Source: Sandaracinus sp.
Lineage (GTDB): Bacteria; Myxococcota_A; Polyangia; Polyangiales; Houyiibacteriaceae
DNA length: 64,000 nt
Assembly (NCBI GenBank): GCA_002699025.1
Contig: PABA01000176.1
Span: 1-64,000 of the forward strand
Reading direction: 5' to 3'
A model generated the notes under the pieces. That model saw only the letters and a program-made list of their open reading frames with translations, had not been told where the DNA came from and did no database searches. Below are positions 4,689 through 14,016 of this stretch, in pieces; the stretch's first letter is position 1, and each line of letters begins with the position of its first letter. The translations under genes were made by a program, and so were the position numbers.

Positions 4689-4714
4689 GCCGGCGCGCCG
4701 GGCCCGTCGACCTG

Positions 4715-4860
4715 GCGCAGAGCTCGTCAGAGAGCGAGAGCGAAGGCGAAGGCGGGCCGGTCGCGGCCCATCGGCCCGACGTCGAGCTCGTCCGGCAGAG
4801 AGGGCGGAGGCGCTCGCGCCGCGGGGCAGGTCGCGGCCCATCGGCCGGAGGCCGAGCCCC
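4715..4860. repeat. Two decayed copies of the adjacent gene's 3' end
   Basis: The 18-bp block GGCAGGTCGCGGCCCATC near the end of the methyltransferase gene (4901-4918) recurs at 4825-4842 and, with two changes, at 4754-4772, at intervals of about 76 and 70 bp. The flanks are similar too. In the first copy the minus strand would read MGRDLPRGASASALS, against MGRDLPCGTSVFALA at the real C-terminus. These look like tandem duplications of the last ~20 codons that have since diverged. Confidence 0.75.
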
Positions 4861-5757
4861 TCAGACCGCGCGGGCGAGGGCGAAGACGCTCGTGCCGCAG
4901 GGCAGGTCGCGGCCCATCAGCCAGCGCGCCTCGAGCTCGAGCAGGCGGAGCGCCGCCGCGTTCAGGGCCGGGTTCGTCTTCGCCTCGAGGAGCTCGTCGA
5001 AGGCCACGGGCGCCGGCCGCCCGAGGACCTTGCTCCGGAGCTCGCGGAGGAGCTTCACCCCGCCCGCCGCGAAGAAGAGCGGGAAGAAGAAGTAGGTCAG
5101 GCGCTCGAGGGCGAAGCCGCTCTCCTCGGCCAGCGCGCGCGCCGACTCGAGCGTGTAGCGACGCTTGTGCTTCTGCGTGTCGTCCCAGGGCGACCAGAGC
5201 ATCTGGAAGGCGGGCACGGTGAAGACCACGTGCGCCCCGGGCCGCAGGTGCCTGCGCACGTGCCGCAGCGTCGCCTGATCGTCGGGCAGGTGCTCGAGCA
5301 CGTCGAAGAGGAGCACGGCGTCGTAGCCGTCCGCGCGCCGGTCCCCGTCGAGGTCCGGCGCCGGCGGGAACTGGCGCGTGATGTCGAGGCGCACGTAGCG
5401 CCGGTGCCGCGCCGCGCCGAGGTGCGCCGCCACGCGTCGGGCCGCCGCCTCGAGCCCCTCCCGGTGCACGTCGCCGTAGTCGACCACGTAGCCGTGCCGG
5501 TTCAGGTGCGTGGCCACGTTCCCCGTGCCGCAGCCGAGCTCGATGGCCCGCGTCCCCGGCCCGAGATGCACGTCCATGAGCCGCCGGATGAGCTCGCGCC
5601 GATAGACGTGCCAGTAGTGCGTCGTCTCGAGCGTCTCGCGGAACGCGAACTCGCGCGGATCGAAGTACGCGGCGAGGTCGATGCCCGCGTCGTCCTCCGC
5701 GAGCAGGTCCAGGATCTCGGCGTCCCCGGGCGGGGTCGACGGCTTCGGCATCGACAT
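4861..5757 (-). CDS. Class I SAM-dependent methyltransferase
   Basis: The 298-aa enzyme carries SAM-binding motif I (AIELGCGTGNVATHL), a post-I acidic segment and the DVLEHLPDD element typical of Methyltransf_11/23 families. Its C-terminal third is hydrophobic (YFFFPLFFAAGG), as in methyltransferases acting on lipids or polyprenyl-linked sugars. It is the last gene of the minus-strand run that starts at 10941, 35 bp after the YbhN-like gene. The context suggests methylation of a glycan or glycolipid made by the operon; the acceptor is unknown. Two ATGs two codons apart (5757, 5751) are possible starts. Decayed copies of its last ~20 codons lie just downstream. Confidence 0.8.
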   Translation of the reverse strand: MSMPKPSTPPGDAEILDLLAEDDAGIDLAAYFDPREFAFRETLETTHYWHVYRRELIRRLMDVHLGPGTRAIELGCGTGNVATHLNRHGYVVDYGDVHREGLEAAARRVAAHLGAARHRRYVRLDITRQFPPAPDLDGDRRADGYDAVLLFDVLEHLPDDQATLRHVRRHLRPGAHVVFTVPAFQMLWSPWDDTQKHKRRYTLESARALAEESGFALERLTYFFFPLFFAAGGVKLLRELRSKVLGRPAPVAFDELLEAKTNPALNAAALRLLELEARWLMGRDLPCGTSVFALARAV

Positions 5758-5792
5758 GGGCCGGCTCGGCGTACGAGCCGCCCCCGCGCCGG

Positions 5793-6767
5793 TCAAGCGC
5801 CGGCGCCCTCCTCGCTCGGCCCGGTCGGCTCGCTCGGCTCGGCGGGCTCGGCGAGCGCGCGCGTGCCGGCGGGCGTGAAGGCCAGGCCGACGACGACCTG
5901 TCCGATCATCGACGCCACCGTCCAGGCGGCCCCGGCCGCGACGATGGCCGCCTGCCCGTCGTCCTCCGGCGCCCAGGGGGCGAGGAGCTCGATGGCGACC
6001 AGCTCGCGGGCGCCGAGCCCCTGCGGCGTGATGGGGAGCGCCGAGACCAGGAGGATGATCGGCATCAGCACGCAGGTCGGGCCGAAGGGGAGCGTCACGT
6101 CGAAGAAGGCGTAGGCGCCCCAGAGGCCGGCCACGAGGCCGACGACGTAGGGGAGGCGCCAGAGGAGGAGCGTGACGTGGCGGAGCGGGCCGGCGTCGAA
6201 GAGGGGCTTCAGGAAGGCGCGCGCCGCGAGGAGCCCGGGGCGCAGGCGGAGGACGGCGAGGTAGACGACCCCCGCGACGAGGAGCGGCAGGACGTAGCCC
6301 GTGATCCAGGGCGCGCTCTCGTGGCTGAAGGGGAGCGAGACGGCGGTGACGGCGATCACGCCGCCGAAGAAGGTCGCGTAGGAGAGGAGCGTCGCCCCGG
6401 CGACGCTGACCACCGGGGCGCCGTGGCGCCGGCTGAGGAGGAAGGTGAGGTAGGCCTGGCCGACGTGGAAGTTGATGGTGCCGGGCAGGTAGGAGGCGCC
6501 GCGCACGACGAGGAGATCGCGGAAGCGCAGCGTGGGGGCGACGAGCCGGTAGACGCGCCAGCTCGCGAGCGAGTCGAGGCTCAGGTTCACGGCGAGGCAG
6601 GCGCCGACGAACGCCGCGTAGGCGGGGAGGGAGACGCGGCCCAGGTGCCGGGCGACCTCCCCCGGGTCGACGCGCCAGAGGGCGAGGGCGAGGAAGAGGA
6701 CCGCGACGAGCCACGGCAACAGGCGCCGCCAGAGGGGCGGCGCGGCGCCGCCGGAGGGAGCGCTCAC
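5793..6767 (-). CDS. YbhN/LPG-synthase-type integral membrane protein
   Basis: The 324-aa protein has about eight hydrophobic helices and the sequence pattern of the lysylphosphatidylglycerol synthase TM region/UPF0104 family. This includes SYLPGTINFHVGQAY in an early helix pair and ALPITPQGLGARELV near the end, where the family has PGGlG. Members are proposed flippases or accessory proteins for lipid-linked sugars and aminoacyl lipids; none of the soluble transferase domain is present. It starts with GTG that overlaps the stop of the upstream epimerase gene (GTGA at 6764-6767), so the two are translationally coupled. A role in moving the operon's lipid-linked product across the inner membrane is an inference. 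Confidence 0.78.
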   Translation of the reverse strand: MSAPSGGAAPPLWRRLLPWLVAVLFLALALWRVDPGEVARHLGRVSLPAYAAFVGACLAVNLSLDSLASWRVYRLVAPTLRFRDLLVVRGASYLPGTINFHVGQAYLTFLLSRRHGAPVVSVAGATLLSYATFFGGVIAVTAVSLPFSHESAPWITGYVLPLLVAGVVYLAVLRLRPGLLAARAFLKPLFDAGPLRHVTLLLWRLPYVVGLVAGLWGAYAFFDVTLPFGPTCVLMPIILLVSALPITPQGLGARELVAIELLAPWAPEDDGQAAIVAAGAAWTVASMIGQVVVGLAFTPAGTRALAEPAEPSEPTGPSEEGAGA

Positions 6768-7696
6768 GGGGCTTCGCTCTTCAGCCAGGCGAGCTCCTCG
6801 GCCATGCCCTCCTCGAGGGGGACGGCGGGAGCGAAGGCGAGCTCGGCGCGGGCGCGCTCGATGGACATGTGGAAGTCGCGGCGGCGCTTCTCGCGCGGGG
6901 CGGGCTCGGGGGCGCCGGGGAGGCCGGCGACCTTCATGGCGACGCGGGCGAGCTCGGCGACACTGTGGGGGGCGCCATCGGCGACGTTGTAGGGGCCGCG
7001 GCCGCGCTCGAGGGCGGCGGCGAGGGCGGCGGCGGCGTCGCGCACGTGGAGCTGGTCCCGCTGGTCGAGGCCGTCGCCGAAGATCACCGGACGCTCGCCG
7101 GCGGCGACGCGGCGGAGGAAGTTCGGGAGGGCACGGGAGGTGGTCTCCCCCGGGCCGTAGACGGCGGGCATGCGGAGCGAGACGCTGCGGATGCCCTCCT
7201 CGTCGGTGAAGGCCTGGGCGTGGTGCTCGCCGGCGAGCTTGGTCGCGCCGTAGTCGCTCAGCGGGTAGGTGCGCGCGGCCTCGCTGACCGGGGCCTCGCG
7301 GGGCTCGCCGTAGACCTCGAAGCTCGAGGCGTAGACGACGACGGAGGCGCCGGCCTTCCGGGCGGCGTCGAGGGCGCGCATGGTGCCAAGGACGTTCACG
7401 TCGACGAGGCGCCGGCGGTCCTCGGCGGTGGTGTGGGCGGTGCTCGGCGGGTGCCAGGCGGCGAGGTGCACGAGGCCGACGGTGGGGCCGAGCTCGGCGG
7501 CGAGGGCGTCGACGGCGGCGTCCTCGGAGAGGTCGAGGGCGAGCGCGCGGATCCCCTCGCCGGCGGCCTCGCCGAAGAGGGGCGCCGGGAGCCGGCCGCT
7601 CCGGGAGGCGGCGACGACCTCGTGGCCGGCGCGCGCGAAGGCGTGGCAGGCGGCGCGGCCGAGATGACCCGTGCCGCCGGTGACGACGAGCTTCAC
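6764..7696 (-). CDS. NAD-dependent epimerase/dehydratase (extended SDR)
   Basis: The 310-aa protein (GTG start at 7696) has the Rossmann glycine motif VTGGTGHLG at the N-terminus, the catalytic YGATK segment and a Ser-rich ASSFEVYGE element before it, all typical of extended SDR sugar-nucleotide epimerases/dehydratases. The C-terminal third holds the usual substrate-binding region (PYNVADGAPHSVAEL). The likely substrate is a nucleotide-activated sugar. It is coupled on both sides by GTGA overlaps, to the homologous epimerase upstream and the membrane protein downstream. Two non-identical epimerase-like genes in tandem suggest sequential steps in making one unusual sugar. Confidence 0.85.
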   Translation of the reverse strand: MKLVVTGGTGHLGRAACHAFARAGHEVVAASRSGRLPAPLFGEAAGEGIRALALDLSEDAAVDALAAELGPTVGLVHLAAWHPPSTAHTTAEDRRRLVDVNVLGTMRALDAARKAGASVVVYASSFEVYGEPREAPVSEAARTYPLSDYGATKLAGEHHAQAFTDEEGIRSVSLRMPAVYGPGETTSRALPNFLRRVAAGERPVIFGDGLDQRDQLHVRDAAAALAAALERGRGPYNVADGAPHSVAELARVAMKVAGLPGAPEPAPREKRRRDFHMSIERARAELAFAPAVPLEEGMAEELAWLKSEAP

Positions 7697-8718
7697 GGCG
7701 TGCCCTCCCCTTCGGCGCCGTCCGTCAGGCCGAAGCGCCAGGTCTCCGCCGGGTCGGCGCCGGCGCGCATCCAGCGGAGCTGCGCCCGGAGGCCCTCCTT
7801 CAGCGGCGTCGGCGCGTAGCCGAGGCGCTCCCGCGCGCTCCCGAGGTCGAAGCGCTGGTCGATCCACCACTTCGGCGTCTTCGCCCGGTCGAGGAGCGGC
7901 TCGACGTCGGCCACGCCCTCCTCCCGCGCCACCTCGCAGGCCAGGGCCGCCACCTCGGCGATGGTGCGGCTCTTCTCGCCGGCGCCGTGGTAGGCGCCGG
8001 TCGCGCCGCGGAGCGCCGCCTCGACCATCAGCCAGCAGAGGTCCGGCGCGAAGACGTCGTCGCGCACGCTCGCGCCCGCGCCGTAGACGGTCGGCCGCCC
8101 GCCCTCGAGGAGCGCCGCGAGGAAGCGCGGGATGGCGTTCTTCGCGTGCTGGCCCGGCCCGTAGATGCAGCTCGGGCGCACCACGGCGAAGCGGTAGCCG
8201 GCGCGCTCGGCGCTCAGCTCGAGGAGGCGCTCGGCGAGGAACTTGGCCGAGCCGTAGCTGTGTGGGTCCGGGCGCTGGGGCGGGTCCGCGGGGTCGATGG
8301 CGCCCTCCGCCGTCTCGCGCTCGGGGCGGCTCGGGCCGTACATCTTGAAGGTCGAGCAGGCGACCAGGTGCGGGCGCTGGCCGGCGGCGAGGAAGGCCTC
8401 CATGAGCCGCGGCGGCGCTTCGGCGATGGCGCGCAGGTTCGCGCGCGCCTCGGCGTCCACGCTCGAGCCCCGGGTGATGCGCGCGGCCATGTAGAGGACG
8501 GCGTCGATGGCCCCCGCCTCGGCGACGAGGCCCGCCGGGTCGAGGTCTCGCGCGCCGAGGTCCCGTTCGATCTCGGCGCCGCTCCCGGGCACGTCCACGC
8601 CCACGCATTCGCAGCCGCGGAGCCCGAGCGCGTGGCGCAGGTGCGTCCCCACGAAGCCCTGGCTCCCGGTCACGAGGATCCGCGCGCCCTCCCGGCGCGT
8701 CCGCGGCGGCGCCGTCAT
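7693..8718 (-). CDS. NAD-dependent epimerase/dehydratase (extended SDR)
   Basis: The 341-aa protein shows VTGSQGFVGTHL near residues 16-27, an Asp after the second strand (VGVDVPGSG) that would bind the NAD ribose, a CSTFKMYGP segment and catalytic YGSAK. It resembles UDP-glucose 4-epimerase/GDP-mannose dehydratase relatives. ATG 8718 lies 6 bp after the stop of the fusion gene, and its own stop overlaps the next GTG. It therefore sits in the middle of the glycan-type operon. The substrate is not deducible; divergence from the neighbouring epimerase suggests different reactions rather than a recent duplication. Confidence 0.85.
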   Translation of the reverse strand: MTAPPRTRREGARILVTGSQGFVGTHLRHALGLRGCECVGVDVPGSGAEIERDLGARDLDPAGLVAEAGAIDAVLYMAARITRGSSVDAEARANLRAIAEAPPRLMEAFLAAGQRPHLVACSTFKMYGPSRPERETAEGAIDPADPPQRPDPHSYGSAKFLAERLLELSAERAGYRFAVVRPSCIYGPGQHAKNAIPRFLAALLEGGRPTVYGAGASVRDDVFAPDLCWLMVEAALRGATGAYHGAGEKSRTIAEVAALACEVAREEGVADVEPLLDRAKTPKWWIDQRFDLGSARERLGYAPTPLKEGLRAQLRWMRAGADPAETWRFGLTDGAEGEGTP

Positions 8719-8724
8719 CCCGCC

Positions 8725-10941
8725 CTACCCCTCGGCCCGCGTCTTCACCGACTCGCTCCGCTCGGGCGCGCCCGATTGGAAGTCGATGGCCAGCTTGCTC
8801 ACGCTCGCCATGCGCTTGCCGGTCCGCACCATCTCGACCTTCTGCACGAACTCCGTATGGATGCGCAGGTCGTCGCCGAGGTGGCGCCGGATCACGGCCT
8901 TCACCTCCTCGAGGGCGTCCTGGGAGAAGCGCCCGCCCTTCACGACCAAGAAGCGGATCGCCCCCGGCTCGTCCTGCACGATCTGGAAGCGCTCGATGGC
9001 GTAGTCGTAGTCCTTGAGCAGGTGCGGGAAGAAGGTGCCGGGGACGTAGCGCCCGTCCGTGCCCTGGATGATCGACTGCACGCGGCCGTGGATCTCGCCG
9101 ATGCGCGGCGCGGCCCGCCCGCAGGCGCAGACGCCCTCCTCCATCGCCACGGCGAGGTCGCCGATGCGGTAGCGGATGAAGGGCATGGCGTAGTTGTTCA
9201 GGTCGGTGACGACCACCTCACCGGTCTCGCCCGGCTTCGCGGGGCGCCCGTCGACGAGGATCTCCACGAGGTAGCCCTCGCTGACGACGTGGTGGCCGGC
9301 GTGGGCCTCGCACTCGTAGGCGATGCCGCTGAACTCGCGGCTGCCGTACTTGTCGAAGGCGGCGCAGCCGAAGGCGTCCTCGATGATCGCGCGGCTGTGG
9401 TCGGGGAGGCTCTGCGCGCTCGACATGATCGCACGCGGCTGGTGGCTCATGCGGCCGACCTTCTTCAGGTAGCGCGCGAGGAAGTCGAAGGCCTCGGCGT
9501 AGCCGTCGATGAGCACGGGCTCCTTCTCCTCGATGAGGCGGACCATCTCGTCGAGGCCGTCCTCCTTCATCTCGAAGATGGGCACGAACCAGCGGTTCGA
9601 GAGGCGCGCGTCGGCCCGCTCCTTGAACGCCTGGCTCTTCGACATGCCGAGGGTCTGGTGCCAGAGGCGCACGCTCGGGTCGCCCCAGACGTAGCCGGTC
9701 CACTCCTGCGCGCGGAGCGTGGCCGCCCAGCGGAACTCGAGCTGCTCCCGGTCGGCGAAGCAGACGAAGGGGCGCCCGGTGCTGCCGCTCGTCGTGATGC
9801 GCAGCACCTCCGCGTGGTCGATGTTCTCGGCGCGGATGTCGAAGTAGATGTGGCGGCGGACGTCGTCCTTCGTGAGGAAGGGGAGCTTGTGCAGGTCGGC
9901 CTGGCCGCGGATGTCCTCGGGGCGGAGGCCCGCCTCGCGCAGGCGCTGCCGGTAGTAGGGGACGTTGCGCCAGGCGTGGCGGACGAGGCGGCGGAGCTTC
10001 TCGTCCTGGAGCTCGCGCATCTGGTCGGCCGGGAGCCACTGGGTCTGGTGGAGCGTCTCGTAGTGCTGCTCGACCCGGCGCGTGATCATCCAGTGCGTGC
10101 GCTCGAAGGTGCGCATGTAGGTGCGCCAGCGGAGCGGGTGCTTGCGCGGCGAGGGGGCCGGGTCGCAGTCGACCGGGTGGCGCGCGAGGAAGCGCTCGGC
10201 GACGTCGCGGGGCGGCGCCTTCACGCGGTACTCGAGGGTGGCCTTGGCGAGGTCGACGAGGCTCTCGGCGCTGACCTGGAGGGTCTTGGCGCCGTCGAGG
10301 AAGGAGGTGCCGGCCTTGCGCGGCTCGAAGAGGGTCTCGACCTCGCGGTACTCGTAGCCCTTCGCGTGGGCGGCGACCATGATGAACGACTGCCAGTAGG
10401 CGTAGTCGCCCTCGTAGGTGAGGATGTCGGCGAAGACCTCGCGCGAGCAGCAGATGAAGCCGCTCTTGTTGTCCTCGAGGTCCATCCCGAAGGTGCGGTT
10501 GAGCAGCGTGTTGAAGGCGCGGCTCACCCAGTAGCGGTTGCCGCGCTCGCGGCCGACCGGGGAGCGCCAGCCCTGCACGACGTCGACCTGGTACTCCTGG
10601 AGCGTGCGGTAGAGGCGGAGCACGTCCTCGGGCTGGTACTGGAGGTCGGCGTCGATGATGGCGACGAAGGCGCCCGAGGAGGCCTCGAGGCCCGTGCCCC
10701 AGGCGGCGGAGATGCCGCGGTTGACGCCGTGGTAGGCGCCGGTGATGCGCGGGTGCTGCTCGGCGAGCTCGCGGATCACCTCGGCCGTGCGGTCGGCGGA
10801 GCCGTCGTCGACGAGGACGAGCTCGCCGGCGATCTCGCCGTGGTCGAAGGTGCCGAGGACGCGCCGGGCCAGCTCCGGGAGGTTCAGCTCCTCGTTGAAG
10901 CAGGGGACGATGACGGAGATCTCGGGCGTCGCGGCGGTCAT
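8725..10941 (-). CDS. Glycosyltransferase family 2 fused to a PaaK/CapK-type adenylate-forming domain
   Basis: The 738-aa protein has two clear domains. Residues ~6-235 form a GT2 (polyprenyl-phosphate mannosyl/glucosyltransferase-like) domain with VPCFNEELNLP, VDDGSAD (44-50) and the metal-binding DADLQ (97-101). After a ~60-residue linker, residues ~300-735 match the phenylacetate-CoA ligase/CapK family: the phosphate loop ITTSGSTGRP (382-391), KYGSREFSG, and YAMPFIRYRIGDLA with a following Cys pair (CACG). Such domains activate carboxylates as acyl adenylates. It is the first gene of the minus-strand operon (ATG 10941). The fusion suggests that the enzyme both transfers a sugar and activates or attaches an acyl group to the same carrier, which is inference. 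The domains are usually separate proteins. Confidence 0.85.
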   Translation of the reverse strand: MTAATPEISVIVPCFNEELNLPELARRVLGTFDHGEIAGELVLVDDGSADRTAEVIRELAEQHPRITGAYHGVNRGISAAWGTGLEASSGAFVAIIDADLQYQPEDVLRLYRTLQEYQVDVVQGWRSPVGRERGNRYWVSRAFNTLLNRTFGMDLEDNKSGFICCSREVFADILTYEGDYAYWQSFIMVAAHAKGYEYREVETLFEPRKAGTSFLDGAKTLQVSAESLVDLAKATLEYRVKAPPRDVAERFLARHPVDCDPAPSPRKHPLRWRTYMRTFERTHWMITRRVEQHYETLHQTQWLPADQMRELQDEKLRRLVRHAWRNVPYYRQRLREAGLRPEDIRGQADLHKLPFLTKDDVRRHIYFDIRAENIDHAEVLRITTSGSTGRPFVCFADREQLEFRWAATLRAQEWTGYVWGDPSVRLWHQTLGMSKSQAFKERADARLSNRWFVPIFEMKEDGLDEMVRLIEEKEPVLIDGYAEAFDFLARYLKKVGRMSHQPRAIMSSAQSLPDHSRAIIEDAFGCAAFDKYGSREFSGIAYECEAHAGHHVVSEGYLVEILVDGRPAKPGETGEVVVTDLNNYAMPFIRYRIGDLAVAMEEGVCACGRAAPRIGEIHGRVQSIIQGTDGRYVPGTFFPHLLKDYDYAIERFQIVQDEPGAIRFLVVKGGRFSQDALEEVKAVIRRHLGDDLRIHTEFVQKVEMVRTGKRMASVSKLAIDFQSGAPERSESVKTRAEG

Positions 10942-11141
10942 GATGAAGCGGGCGGCAGCCTGTCACGCGGGCCGCGGCGGTTCCAGTGGCGGCGGGAGCG
11001 TGCGCTTGCCCCCGACCTGGGGGGCGCCGCCAGGGGCGCGCGCGGGGTATGCCGAGAGGTCCGGGGAGCGCCCGACGCGGGAGCAGGCTGCTTGCGCGTG
11101 CGCGATCCGCCGTCCAGCGTCCCCCGCCGACGAGTCCTCCC

Positions 11142-11756
11142 ATGGCCCGCCTGCTCCCGCTCTCGCTCGCGCTCCTCGCCCTCTCCGCCTGCGGCGGCGA
11201 GGAGGCGCCCGCCGCCACGACCGACCCCTCCGCGGAGGCCTCGGCCGGCGGAGAGGAGACCGCGCCGCCCCCCGCGCCGCCGGGCCCGCTCGGCGACGAC
11301 GCCTTCCTCGGGCGCGTCCCGCCGGGCTTCCGGCCGGCCGAGATCCCGGACCGGGTCGGCTTCGTGCGATCGGAGCGGCCGGCGCCCGACGGGCACCTCG
11401 GCTCGATCGTCGTCTCGACCCCCGCGTACGCGACGCCGGACCAGCGGGTGCTGCTCACGAGCGCCGACCGCTGCCGCGACGCCGGCGAAGCCTCGGCCCA
11501 CGCGCTCCGCCGGGACCACCAGGTCGAGCCGCAGTACGTGCGCTACGCCGTGATCGAGCTGCCGGCCGGGGAGGCCTGCCAGTACGAGCTGCGGATCGTC
11601 GGCGCGGAGCGGCCGCACTCGGTGGTCGGCACGGTGCTCCAGTCGGAGGGCGCGGACCGGGTCGTCCTCTGCACGATCGGCGAGGGCGACGCGGTGGCGC
11701 GGGAGGGCTGCGAGGCCTTCCTCGAGAGCTGGCGCTGGGCGCCCGGCGAGCGCTGA
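11142..11756 (+). CDS. Lipoprotein of unknown function
   Basis: The 204-aa product (ATG 11142) has a signal peptide ending in LLALSACGG with the lipidated Cys at 17. An Ala/Pro/Glu-rich linker to about residue 50 follows, then a mixed alpha/beta globular part with three cysteines. No family was recognised. It is transcribed away from the glycan operon, sharing a ~200-bp divergent intergenic region, and converges on the minus-strand gene ending at 11869. Start choice rests on the signal peptide; upstream in-frame sequence is Arg/Gly-rich and not signal-like. Confidence 0.75.
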   Translation: MARLLPLSLALLALSACGGEEAPAATTDPSAEASAGGEETAPPPAPPGPLGDDAFLGRVPPGFRPAEIPDRVGFVRSERPAPDGHLGSIVVSTPAYATPDQRVLLTSADRCRDAGEASAHALRRDHQVEPQYVRYAVIELPAGEACQYELRIVGAERPHSVVGTVLQSEGADRVVLCTIGEGDAVAREGCEAFLESWRWAPGER

Positions 11757-11868: not shown

Positions 11869-14016
11869 CTACTCGGCGGGCTCCTCCGCGAAGAGGGTCG
11901 CGCCCCAGCAGAAGTGGCGGGCGCCGTCCTCGGGGGCGCTGACGCGGAAGGTCACGCGGCGGGGCGCGTCGCTCGGGGGGATGGTCCAGGCGAAGGTCGC
12001 GTAGCCGGGCTCGGCGCCGGCCTCGATGGCGTCCACGGGCCGGCCGTCGACGCGGAGAGCGAGGCGGACGTCGGGGCCCCCGCGGGCCGCCGCCGCGTCG
12101 AGGACGCCCGCGAAGCCCGCCACCCGGCGCCCCTCGGGCGGGACGTTCTCGAAGACCACGTCGAGGGGGCGCCCGTCCGGCAGCGGGTGGGTCCAGGTGC
12201 AGGGCATGCGCACGCGCCCGAGCTCGCCCTCGGTGGGGCCGACCCAGGTCCACTCGGCATGCGGGCACTCGAGGCGCTCGCCATCCCAGGGGGCGCAGGC
12301 CTCGCGCTCGCCGCCGGGCGCGCCCTCGTAGGCGGCGGCGCGGTGCACGTTCTCGCGGAAGCTGTAGACGACCGTCCGGCGCGGGGCGGTGTTGCGCCAG
12401 AGGCTCCAGGCGCCGGCCTCGGCGACCTCCTCGATGCCCTCGCCGGCGCCGATGCGGGCGGCGAGGTTCCCGCCGCGGCGGGTGAGGAAGTAGTCGTAGA
12501 AGTCGCCGTAGAGGTCGTAGCGGAAGCGGCGGTGCTCCCACTCGCCGCGCCGACCCGGGTAGGGGCTCGAGCCGAGGGTGCGGAGCGAGAGCGGGATGGT
12601 CGAGCTGTTGATGAAGGTGAAGCCGACGAGGCCGCCACGCTCCACCATGTAGTAGGCCGGGTAGTGGAGGAAGACGGCGTGCGAGAGCGCGTCGGCGCGG
12701 GAGGCGTAGACCATCCCGTAGAGGCGCCGACCGGGCTCGGCGGCCTCGAGGACCGTGGCGAGGTCCTCGGCCTCCTCGTCGACGCTCGTGAGCTTCTCGT
12801 GGACCACCCAGCCGGTCCACGCGGCGAGGGCCAGGGCGGGGGCGTGGACGAGGAGCGGGAGCCAGGGCTTGGCGGACGGGGCGACGGCGAGGGGCAGGAG
12901 GAGCGCGAGGCCGCAGATGCCGAGGATCACCATGCGGGGCGAGATGGCCCAGATGTTCGCGGCGCTCATGGGGGCGCCCCAGTAGAGGCCGGCGAGGAGG
13001 AGGCCGACGAGCCAGGCGCGCCAGGGGACGGCGGGGCGGCCCTCGCGGCGCCAGCGGAGGACGAGGCCGACGAGGCCGGCGAGGAGGAGCCAGCCGAGCA
13101 CGGCGGCGAAGCCGAGGCGGAGCTGCTGGTCGGCGTCGTCGTGGAAGGCCTCGTTGAACCACTGCGGGAGGCCGATCCACTTCTCCTCGAGGGAGCGCAT
13201 CTCGAGCTCGCCGCCGGACTGGGCGTGGACCGTGGCGGTGGCGGCGCCGAGCCGGTCGGCCTGATCGGTGACGAAGCTGGAGCCGAACCAGATGCCGAAG
13301 CAGGCGAGGCTCGGGACGAGGGCGAGGAAGAGGCGAACCAGGCGGCGCCAGCGGCGCCAGTGGTGGAAGAGGGCGGCGGCGACGCCGGCGACGAGGAGAG
13401 CGACGCCGTAGGCGAGCGCGTGGGTGAAGAAGAGGAGGGAGGAGGCGAGGACGACCTCGCCGACGCGGCGGGCCGGGGCGCCCTCGAGGTCGCCGAGGCG
13501 GAAGAGCGCGGCGAGGGTCCACAGGGCGAGGGGCACGGCCATCACGTAGGCGCCGAAGCCGAGGTAGAGGGGCCAGCTCCAGACGGCGCCGAAGGCGAGG
13601 AGCGCGGGCCAGGGGGAGCGGCCGAGGACGCGGAGGAGGTGGGCGAGCGCGAGGGGGGTGCCGGCGACGTAGAGGGCGAGGAGGAGGCGGAGCGCCACGT
13701 CGACGCCGACGATCTTCCCGAGGAGGGCGCCGCCCAGGTAGAAGCCGAGGTAGGTGCTGATCTGCGGGTGGAGCTCGTAGTAGAGGTCGAAGCCGCGGGC
13801 GGGGTCGCCGTGGTGGGCGAGGACGGAGACCATCGCGGCGTGCTGCGGGTAGTCGAGGAGCGGCAGCCGGAGCGGGGTGAAGAGGGGGATGGCGACGCAG
13901 AGCGCGCCGAAGGCCCAGGCGGCCCAGAAGGTGGGCCCGAACGGGGGGAGCGGGTTCGGCTCGGCGGGCGGCTCGGGCTCGTCGCTCGGCGCCCCGGTGC
14001 GGCGCGGGCGCCTCAC
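11869..14016 (-). CDS. Large multi-pass membrane protein, GT-C glycosyltransferase-like
   Basis: The 715-aa protein has a Pro/Glu-rich cytoplasmic N-terminus, about 11-12 hydrophobic helices between ~30 and ~420, and a C-terminal soluble region of ~290 residues that should face the periplasm. The first extracytoplasmic loop has LPLLDYPQHAAM, an acidic loop position like that of GT-C transferases using polyprenyl-phosphate sugars. The overall plan matches GT39/GT83-type proteins, though no classical DE pair was found. It starts with GTG inside the stop of the upstream hydrolase-like gene (GTGA, 14013-14016), implying coupled translation. The C-terminal domain is beta-rich and unassigned. The function is inferred from architecture only. 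Confidence 0.72.
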   Translation of the reverse strand: MRRPRRTGAPSDEPEPPAEPNPLPPFGPTFWAAWAFGALCVAIPLFTPLRLPLLDYPQHAAMVSVLAHHGDPARGFDLYYELHPQISTYLGFYLGGALLGKIVGVDVALRLLLALYVAGTPLALAHLLRVLGRSPWPALLAFGAVWSWPLYLGFGAYVMAVPLALWTLAALFRLGDLEGAPARRVGEVVLASSLLFFTHALAYGVALLVAGVAAALFHHWRRWRRLVRLFLALVPSLACFGIWFGSSFVTDQADRLGAATATVHAQSGGELEMRSLEEKWIGLPQWFNEAFHDDADQQLRLGFAAVLGWLLLAGLVGLVLRWRREGRPAVPWRAWLVGLLLAGLYWGAPMSAANIWAISPRMVILGICGLALLLPLAVAPSAKPWLPLLVHAPALALAAWTGWVVHEKLTSVDEEAEDLATVLEAAEPGRRLYGMVYASRADALSHAVFLHYPAYYMVERGGLVGFTFINSSTIPLSLRTLGSSPYPGRRGEWEHRRFRYDLYGDFYDYFLTRRGGNLAARIGAGEGIEEVAEAGAWSLWRNTAPRRTVVYSFRENVHRAAAYEGAPGGEREACAPWDGERLECPHAEWTWVGPTEGELGRVRMPCTWTHPLPDGRPLDVVFENVPPEGRRVAGFAGVLDAAAARGGPDVRLALRVDGRPVDAIEAGAEPGYATFAWTIPPSDAPRRVTFRVSAPEDGARHFCWGATLFAEEPAE

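Follow-up and report, generated by a model that had tools for sequence, protein, structure and literature searches.

A five-gene operon headed by a fused gene

The DNA analyzed here ("the window") is a 64,000-nucleotide stretch of Sandaracinus sp. (assembly GCA_002699025.1, contig PABA01000176.1, positions 1 to 64,000). It contains an operon of five minus-strand genes that runs from 10941 to 4861 and is headed by a gene that joins a family 2 glycosyltransferase (GT2) to a PaaK/CapK-type ligase ("the fusion"); the four genes that follow are called P2 to P5 (Table 1). In our assessment it is somewhat probable that the fusion is an acid-activating polyprenyl-phosphate sugar synthase and that, together with a UPF0104-type flippase, it makes a modified lipid-linked sugar.

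The junctions between the genes (6 bp, GTGA, GTGA and 35 bp) are exactly those claimed in an earlier reading of the sequence, referred to below as the original prediction. Scored by codon log-odds, with the fusion gene as the training set, all five genes beat the competing frames at a G+C content of 76% (379, 118, 125, 136 and 121 from the fusion to P5). The extent of the operon varies among relatives, and "five-gene operon" therefore describes this genome and not a fixed unit. The source genome, a 9.24-Mb draft in 238 contigs, carries a single full-length copy of the fusion and belongs to the same family as genome G019, which is considered below.

Table 1. Features of the fusion locus in the window.
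Feature	Position	Strand	Description and basis
Fusion gene	8725-10941	minus	738 aa, ATG start; GT2 and CapK/PaaK in one chain; alignment and monophyly
GT2 domain (fusion residues 1-245)	10207..10941	minus	DPMS/ArnC/GtrB-like; Pfam, phmmer to ArnC and PfDPMS, AlphaFold (AF2) model, VIA-align
PaaK/CapK-type AMP-ligase domain (about residues 262-714)	8800..10158	minus	phmmer to PaaK structures, Foldseek, VIA-align
P2, extended short-chain dehydrogenase/reductase (SDR)	7693-8718	minus	341 aa; nucleoside diphosphate (NDP)-sugar epimerase/dehydratase type; 6-bp gap after fusion; Pfam Epimerase
P3, extended SDR	6764-7696	minus	310 aa; GTG start overlaps P2 stop (GTGA); Pfam Epimerase
P4, UPF0104/YbhN (PF03706) flippase candidate	5793-6767	minus	324 aa; GTG start overlaps P3 stop (GTGA)
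P5, class I S-adenosylmethionine methyltransferase	4861-5757	minus	298 aa; 35-bp gap; ATG 5757, alternative ATG 5751; Pfam Methyltransf_23
Multi-transmembrane (multi-TM) protein, possible acceptor-side partner	11869..14016	minus	715 aa; GT-C-like in general character only
Divergent intergenic region, 5' of fusion	10942..11141	none	200 bp; likely promoter region, judged from the layout

The fusion and its two halves

Full-length homologues of the fusion, 46-77% identical overall, occur across phyla. Of 377 Myxococcota genomes sampled, 22 carry one, the source genome included (60-69% identity in the others), and more were found in two further genomes from a search of relatives (77% and 62%), in an Endomicrobiales genome (51%), in a genome from the phylum to which 'Deltaproteobacteria bacterium BM525' belongs (52%) and on the Roseobacter litoralis plasmid pROLI127 (47%), where the protein is annotated only as 'glycosyltransferase'. 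The full-length architecture is thus shared by more than 20 other genomes and is nearly always free of internal stops; stops were reported inside the matched range for two of the sampled matches, L132 and L138. In a CapK tree of 77 domains (FastTree, midpoint-rooted, built on local matches), all 27 fused domains fell into a single clade (support 1.0) as against 50 unfused ones. Since every fused ligase domain lies in that one clade, the fusion probably arose once and then spread between phyla. Together with the full-length homologues and their alignment, this rules out a sequencing error joining two open reading frames, an artifact that the original prediction had named as one possible refutation; the 738-aa protein is genuinely fused.

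The GT2 half matched Pfam Glycos_transf_2 (E 1e-30). An AlphaFold model of the fusion (mean predicted local distance difference test score, pLDDT, 83; predicted template modeling score, pTM, 0.78) splits into residues 3-245 and 262-714. Using VIA-align, residues 3-245 were closest to DPMS (5mlz; Z 25.8, 226 aligned, 2.5 A), and the half gave Z 25.3 with ArnC (9bhe) and Z 23.8 with GtrB (9nyd), while the nearest other GT2s reached only Z 19. In PfDPMS, Arg117, Arg131 and Ser135 bind the acceptor dolichyl phosphate and Asp91 and Gln93 bind the metal (PMC5526996). A phmmer alignment gave R126, R136 and S140 as the fusion equivalents of the first three, and D99 and Q101, within the DADLQ motif (residues 97-101), as those of the metal ligands. 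All 23 fusions compared, among them the Elusimicrobial, Roseobacter and L150 proteins, keep R126, R136 and S140, and likewise D97, D99, L100, Q101 and the acceptor-loop residue R208. Judged from the modeled fold match and the conserved lipid-phosphate residues, the GT2 half is a member of the polyprenyl-phosphate (lipid-linked sugar) class and not a generic glycosyltransferase. The family 2 assignment made previously can therefore be sharpened to the DPMS/ArnC/GtrB class.

Residues 262-714 were closest to PaaK1 (Z 29.1) and BT_0428 (Z 29.0) by Foldseek and VIA-align. This half missed the Pfam AMP-binding gathering cut-off (20.4 vs 29.9 bits), the family being divergent from that model, and its assignment to PaaK was settled by phmmer matches to PaaK structures in the PDB together with the fold comparison. 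We rejected the narrower identity of a PaaK equivalog (phenylacetate-CoA ligase), as the score against NCBIfam TIGR02155 (117 bits) was far from the cut-off of 646 bits. The half carries TSGSTG (384-389), YGSRE (532-536), YRIGD (591-595) and TGK709, and the patterns TSGSTG, YG..E, YR.GD and TGK were invariant among the 23 fusions. Because the catalytic residues and motifs of both halves are invariant, both active sites look intact, and this agrees with the adenylate-forming domain that had been predicted.

Partner genes in the window and in other genomes

P2 and P3, originally called epimerases, are indeed extended SDRs, and the PDB relatives of P2 include dTDP-glucose 4,6-dehydratase and MoeE5. 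Epimerase activity is suggested by their family, and either protein could be a dehydratase or a reductase instead. P4 matched LPG_synthase_TM (PF03706) at 57.2 bits, above the cut-off of 33.4, and has six TM segments by hydropathy. Members of the UPF0104 family have been proposed to flip lipids and lipid-linked sugars (PMC5898192; PMC12713373). By its match P4 is a member of the UPF0104/YbhN family, as foreseen, and it may act as a flippase. P5 was likewise confirmed as a methyltransferase encoded by the last gene of the operon. The 715-aa multi-TM protein encoded upstream had no Pfam match.

We compared the neighborhoods of other proteins with GT2 and CapK domains in one chain and found that the gene set recurs across phyla. 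The recurring neighbors are a GalE-like SDR, a class I methyltransferase family, UPF0104-type flippases and multi-TM proteins. UPF0104-type genes lie near the fusion in the window and at loci L113, L117, L118, L121 and L135, and probably at L123 by hydropathy; tblastn identified P4 homologues of 37-41% identity at the first four of these loci. P5-type methyltransferase genes (45-46%) directly overlap the fusion stop in L114 and L128. The P2-P3 pair recurs in L133/L015 (P3 homologue 56%) and L127 (55%, contig end), and P2 is also found at L134, where it reaches the contig end. Homologues of the 715-aa protein are located near the fusion in L114, L120, L132, L134 and L135 (clusters, tblastn). 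A DUF362 gene overlaps or closely follows the fusion stop at loci to which we gave the guessed label 'Polyangium-like' and at L132. Many relatives have the fusion by itself or next to different partner genes.

We then profiled presence and absence in 80 genomes, 24 with the fusion and 56 without. The partner genes (SDR, methyltransferases, DUF362 and the P2-P3 pair) track the fusion and were found almost only in genomes that carry it. By Fisher tests, which ignore shared ancestry and draw on fusion-negative genomes picked by convenience, the GalE-like SDR and the class I methyltransferase were each associated with the fusion at p 8e-9 (13 of 80 genomes in both cases, all fusion-positive, even if unlinked) and P2 at p 0.007. 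P2 occurred only in the fusion-positive genomes G000, G009, G051 and G366, always beside the fusion. Ten of 377 genomes had close DUF362 homologues (at least 56% identity), and nine of the ten also had the fusion (p 1e-11); the source genome itself gave no DUF362 match. All 24 fusion-positive genomes carry the GalE-like SDR, DUF362 or P2, and just one of the 24 has both the SDR (at least 43% identity) and DUF362 (p 0.005); G397 has DUF362 plus an SDR of 37% identity. Fusion, SDR and methyltransferase are all present in G019 and all missing from its sampled congeners, which supports joint gain or loss. For a DUF362 subfamily, the partner pattern supplies a concrete context.

On pROLI127 an SDR gene, whose product is 42% identical to the Myxococcota SDR, precedes the fusion with a 4-bp overlap, and the fusion is flanked by genes for an LPG_synthase_TM protein and a class I methyltransferase. 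As predicted from these families, the locus holds the same functions as the window, in Alphaproteobacteria. About 3 kb upstream of this fusion (L156 6907-11888) there are also genes for GtrA and for a GT2, together with a pair of large hypothetical genes, of which the first encodes a 549-aa membrane-like protein with a WIDE motif; this is a classic three-component set beside the fusion system.

DUF362 genes were also seen with CapK genes outside the fusion clade, in Nitrospirota (L023 10127-11537), Bacteroidales (L026 4902-6319) and Deltaproteobacteria (L028 6617-8987). DUF362 directly follows CapK in the first two, and one GT2 gene lies between them in the third. These CapK genes form their own clade in the CapK tree, a second and separate association with DUF362, and the pair may be widespread. 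Genomes without a fusion match, from Myxococcota families f31, f42 and others, commonly carry DUF362 proteins of a second group, which share 35-46% identity with the fusion-linked group.

At the borders of the operon, a lipoprotein gene (11142-11756, plus strand) faces the fusion across the divergent region. Three degenerate direct repeats of 47-48 nt, with spacings of 70 and 76, lie at 4701-4922. They span the 3' end of P5 and the DNA beyond, as if the end of the gene had twice been partly duplicated.

A possible pathway, its alternatives and known systems

The operon could provide the cytoplasmic and flipping steps for a modified lipid-linked sugar, and we suggest the following order. P2 and P3, or the GalE-like SDR in relatives, would prepare an NDP-sugar, which the GT2 half would move onto undecaprenyl phosphate in the manner of DPMS, ArnC and GtrB. 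The ligase half would activate a small carboxylic acid, probably an aryl or hydroxy acid, as the acyl-AMP, and the acyl group might pass to coenzyme A (CoA) or directly to the sugar bound in the partner domain, at a hydroxyl or an amine. P5 may methylate the sugar or the acid, and P4 would carry the lipid-linked product across the membrane. Finally, a GT-C-type transferase, conceivably the 715-aa protein, might transfer the product onto an envelope glycan or protein. The original prediction was that a lipid-linked sugar with an acyl or amide group could be built and exported. The GT2 class and the flippase family agree with building and export, and the acyl or amide group is conjecture.

Several observations weigh against this pathway. 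The fusion of the window has no TM helix by hydropathy, unlike ArnC, GtrB and PfDPMS; soluble DPM1-type members exist, so this difference is not decisive. No acyl acceptor or acyltransferase was identified, and passage of the ligase product to the sugar is conjectural. The AF2 model of the 715-aa protein (pLDDT 50) is too poor for use, which makes for a weak GT-C partner, and a 643-aa membrane protein adjoining the fusion in L016 was rejected as its homologue because no similarity was detectable. The methyltransferase and flippase of pROLI127 are only distantly similar to those of the window, and the fusion is monocistronic or nearly so at L116, L119, L124, L126, L130 and L131. A pattern search around CapK genes that lie outside the fusion clade turned up no GT2 of the DADLQ type, and the coupling therefore gains no support from unfused pairs. 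In addition to the limits of the Fisher tests, 17 of the 24 positives belong to one family, which has only four fusion-negative members among the 80 genomes.

Four other explanations were considered. One possibility is that the pathway ends in a membrane glycolipid, the sugar being loaded on a lipid, acylated and flipped to the outer leaflet with no later transfer. A route of this kind has been proposed for Pseudomonas aeruginosa, where the gpgSDF operon makes a GlcN-phosphatidylglycerol glycolipid and the third gene, gpgF, encodes a UPF0104/YbhN protein (PMC12713373); the five-gene operon contains no GT-C gene. However, GpgS is of the GT4 type, while the GT2 of the window is of the polyprenyl-phosphate class, and multi-TM proteins recur near the fusion. 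We regard this outcome as unlikely.

It could also be speculated that the halves are joined but chemically separate, with the acyl- or aryl-CoA used elsewhere and the fusion serving co-expression or localization; PaaK relatives are CoA ligases and the operon has no acyltransferase. This is unlikely to a similar degree, as a fusion of single origin has persisted in four or more bacterial groups while neither active site has varied. Such persistence alongside changing neighbor genes favors coupling of the halves.

Less likely again is an amide-forming route, in which the sugar is the acid: the ligase half would adenylate the uronic-acid carboxyl of the lipid-linked sugar and join it to an amine. 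The AMP-ligase motifs are kept in the fusion, extended SDRs could supply uronic or keto sugars, and NatL2, an enzyme of the PaaK family, joins its adenylate to a second substrate directly, with no CoA involved, although the bond that it was shown to form is an ester and not an amide (PMC7204872). By Pfam, the operon lacks a UDP-sugar dehydrogenase, a transaminase or any amine-forming gene. Finally, adenylylation of a hydroxyl without acid activation, as by coenzyme F390 synthetase, is very improbable. The NCBIfam model for that enzyme matches at E 1.7e-18, far below its cut-off, but PaaK acyl/aryl ligases give the better match in both sequence and fold.

Returning to the acid-activating synthase, we tentatively extend the idea to a previously unreported class of bifunctional enzymes, which might charge undecaprenyl phosphate with a sugar and also join an activated acid to that sugar, with a single origin, a presence in several phyla and interchangeable modules (GalE-like SDR, DUF362, P2-P3) that set the sugar or the acid. 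If true, this would give a DUF362 subfamily its first pathway context. CapK-type ligases are common in polysaccharide gene clusters. In the open-access literature we found no paper assigning a reaction to one of them, no homologous operon with a defined product and, in line with the original prediction, no characterized pathway with this gene set, combinations of CapK/PaaK with polysaccharide or glycosyltransferase genes and of DUF362 with CapK included. Here a CapK-type ligase is naturally fused to a lipid-sugar synthase whose lipid-phosphate residues are intact, which links the ligase to one step and one substrate class and makes its chemistry directly testable. The recurrence of the fusion and its partners in distant bacteria is a genomic pattern pointing to an undescribed surface-sugar pathway.

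The ligase half shares its fold (Z 23-29) and the TSGSTG, YG..E, YR.GD and TGK motifs with PaaK1, BT_0428, NatL2, AjiA1 and ClxA, and a Cys/His set is present in most sequences; the ligase half differs in lying far below the TIGR02155 cut-off and in being joined to a GT2. The GT2 half resembles DPMS, ArnC and GtrB in fold (Z 24-26), in DADLQ, in the equivalents of the lipid-phosphate residues and in the acceptor-loop Arg, but is only 24-28% identical to them, lacks a predicted TM helix and is fused to an AMP-ligase. Like the operon, gpgSDF combines a glycosyltransferase gene with a downstream UPF0104/YbhN flippase gene; it has another glycosyltransferase family, a deacetylase where the window has the ligase, and phosphatidylglycerol as acceptor. 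Compared to three-component glycosylation systems (GtrA/GtrB/Gtr-X, and the pentofuranose systems; PMC11127046), the window adds a ligase, SDRs and a methyltransferase, its flippase is of PF03706 and not of the SMR/GtrA or MATE type, and its GT-C partner is a candidate only, while both have, within a single operon, a polyprenyl-phosphate sugar synthase and a gene for a flippase.

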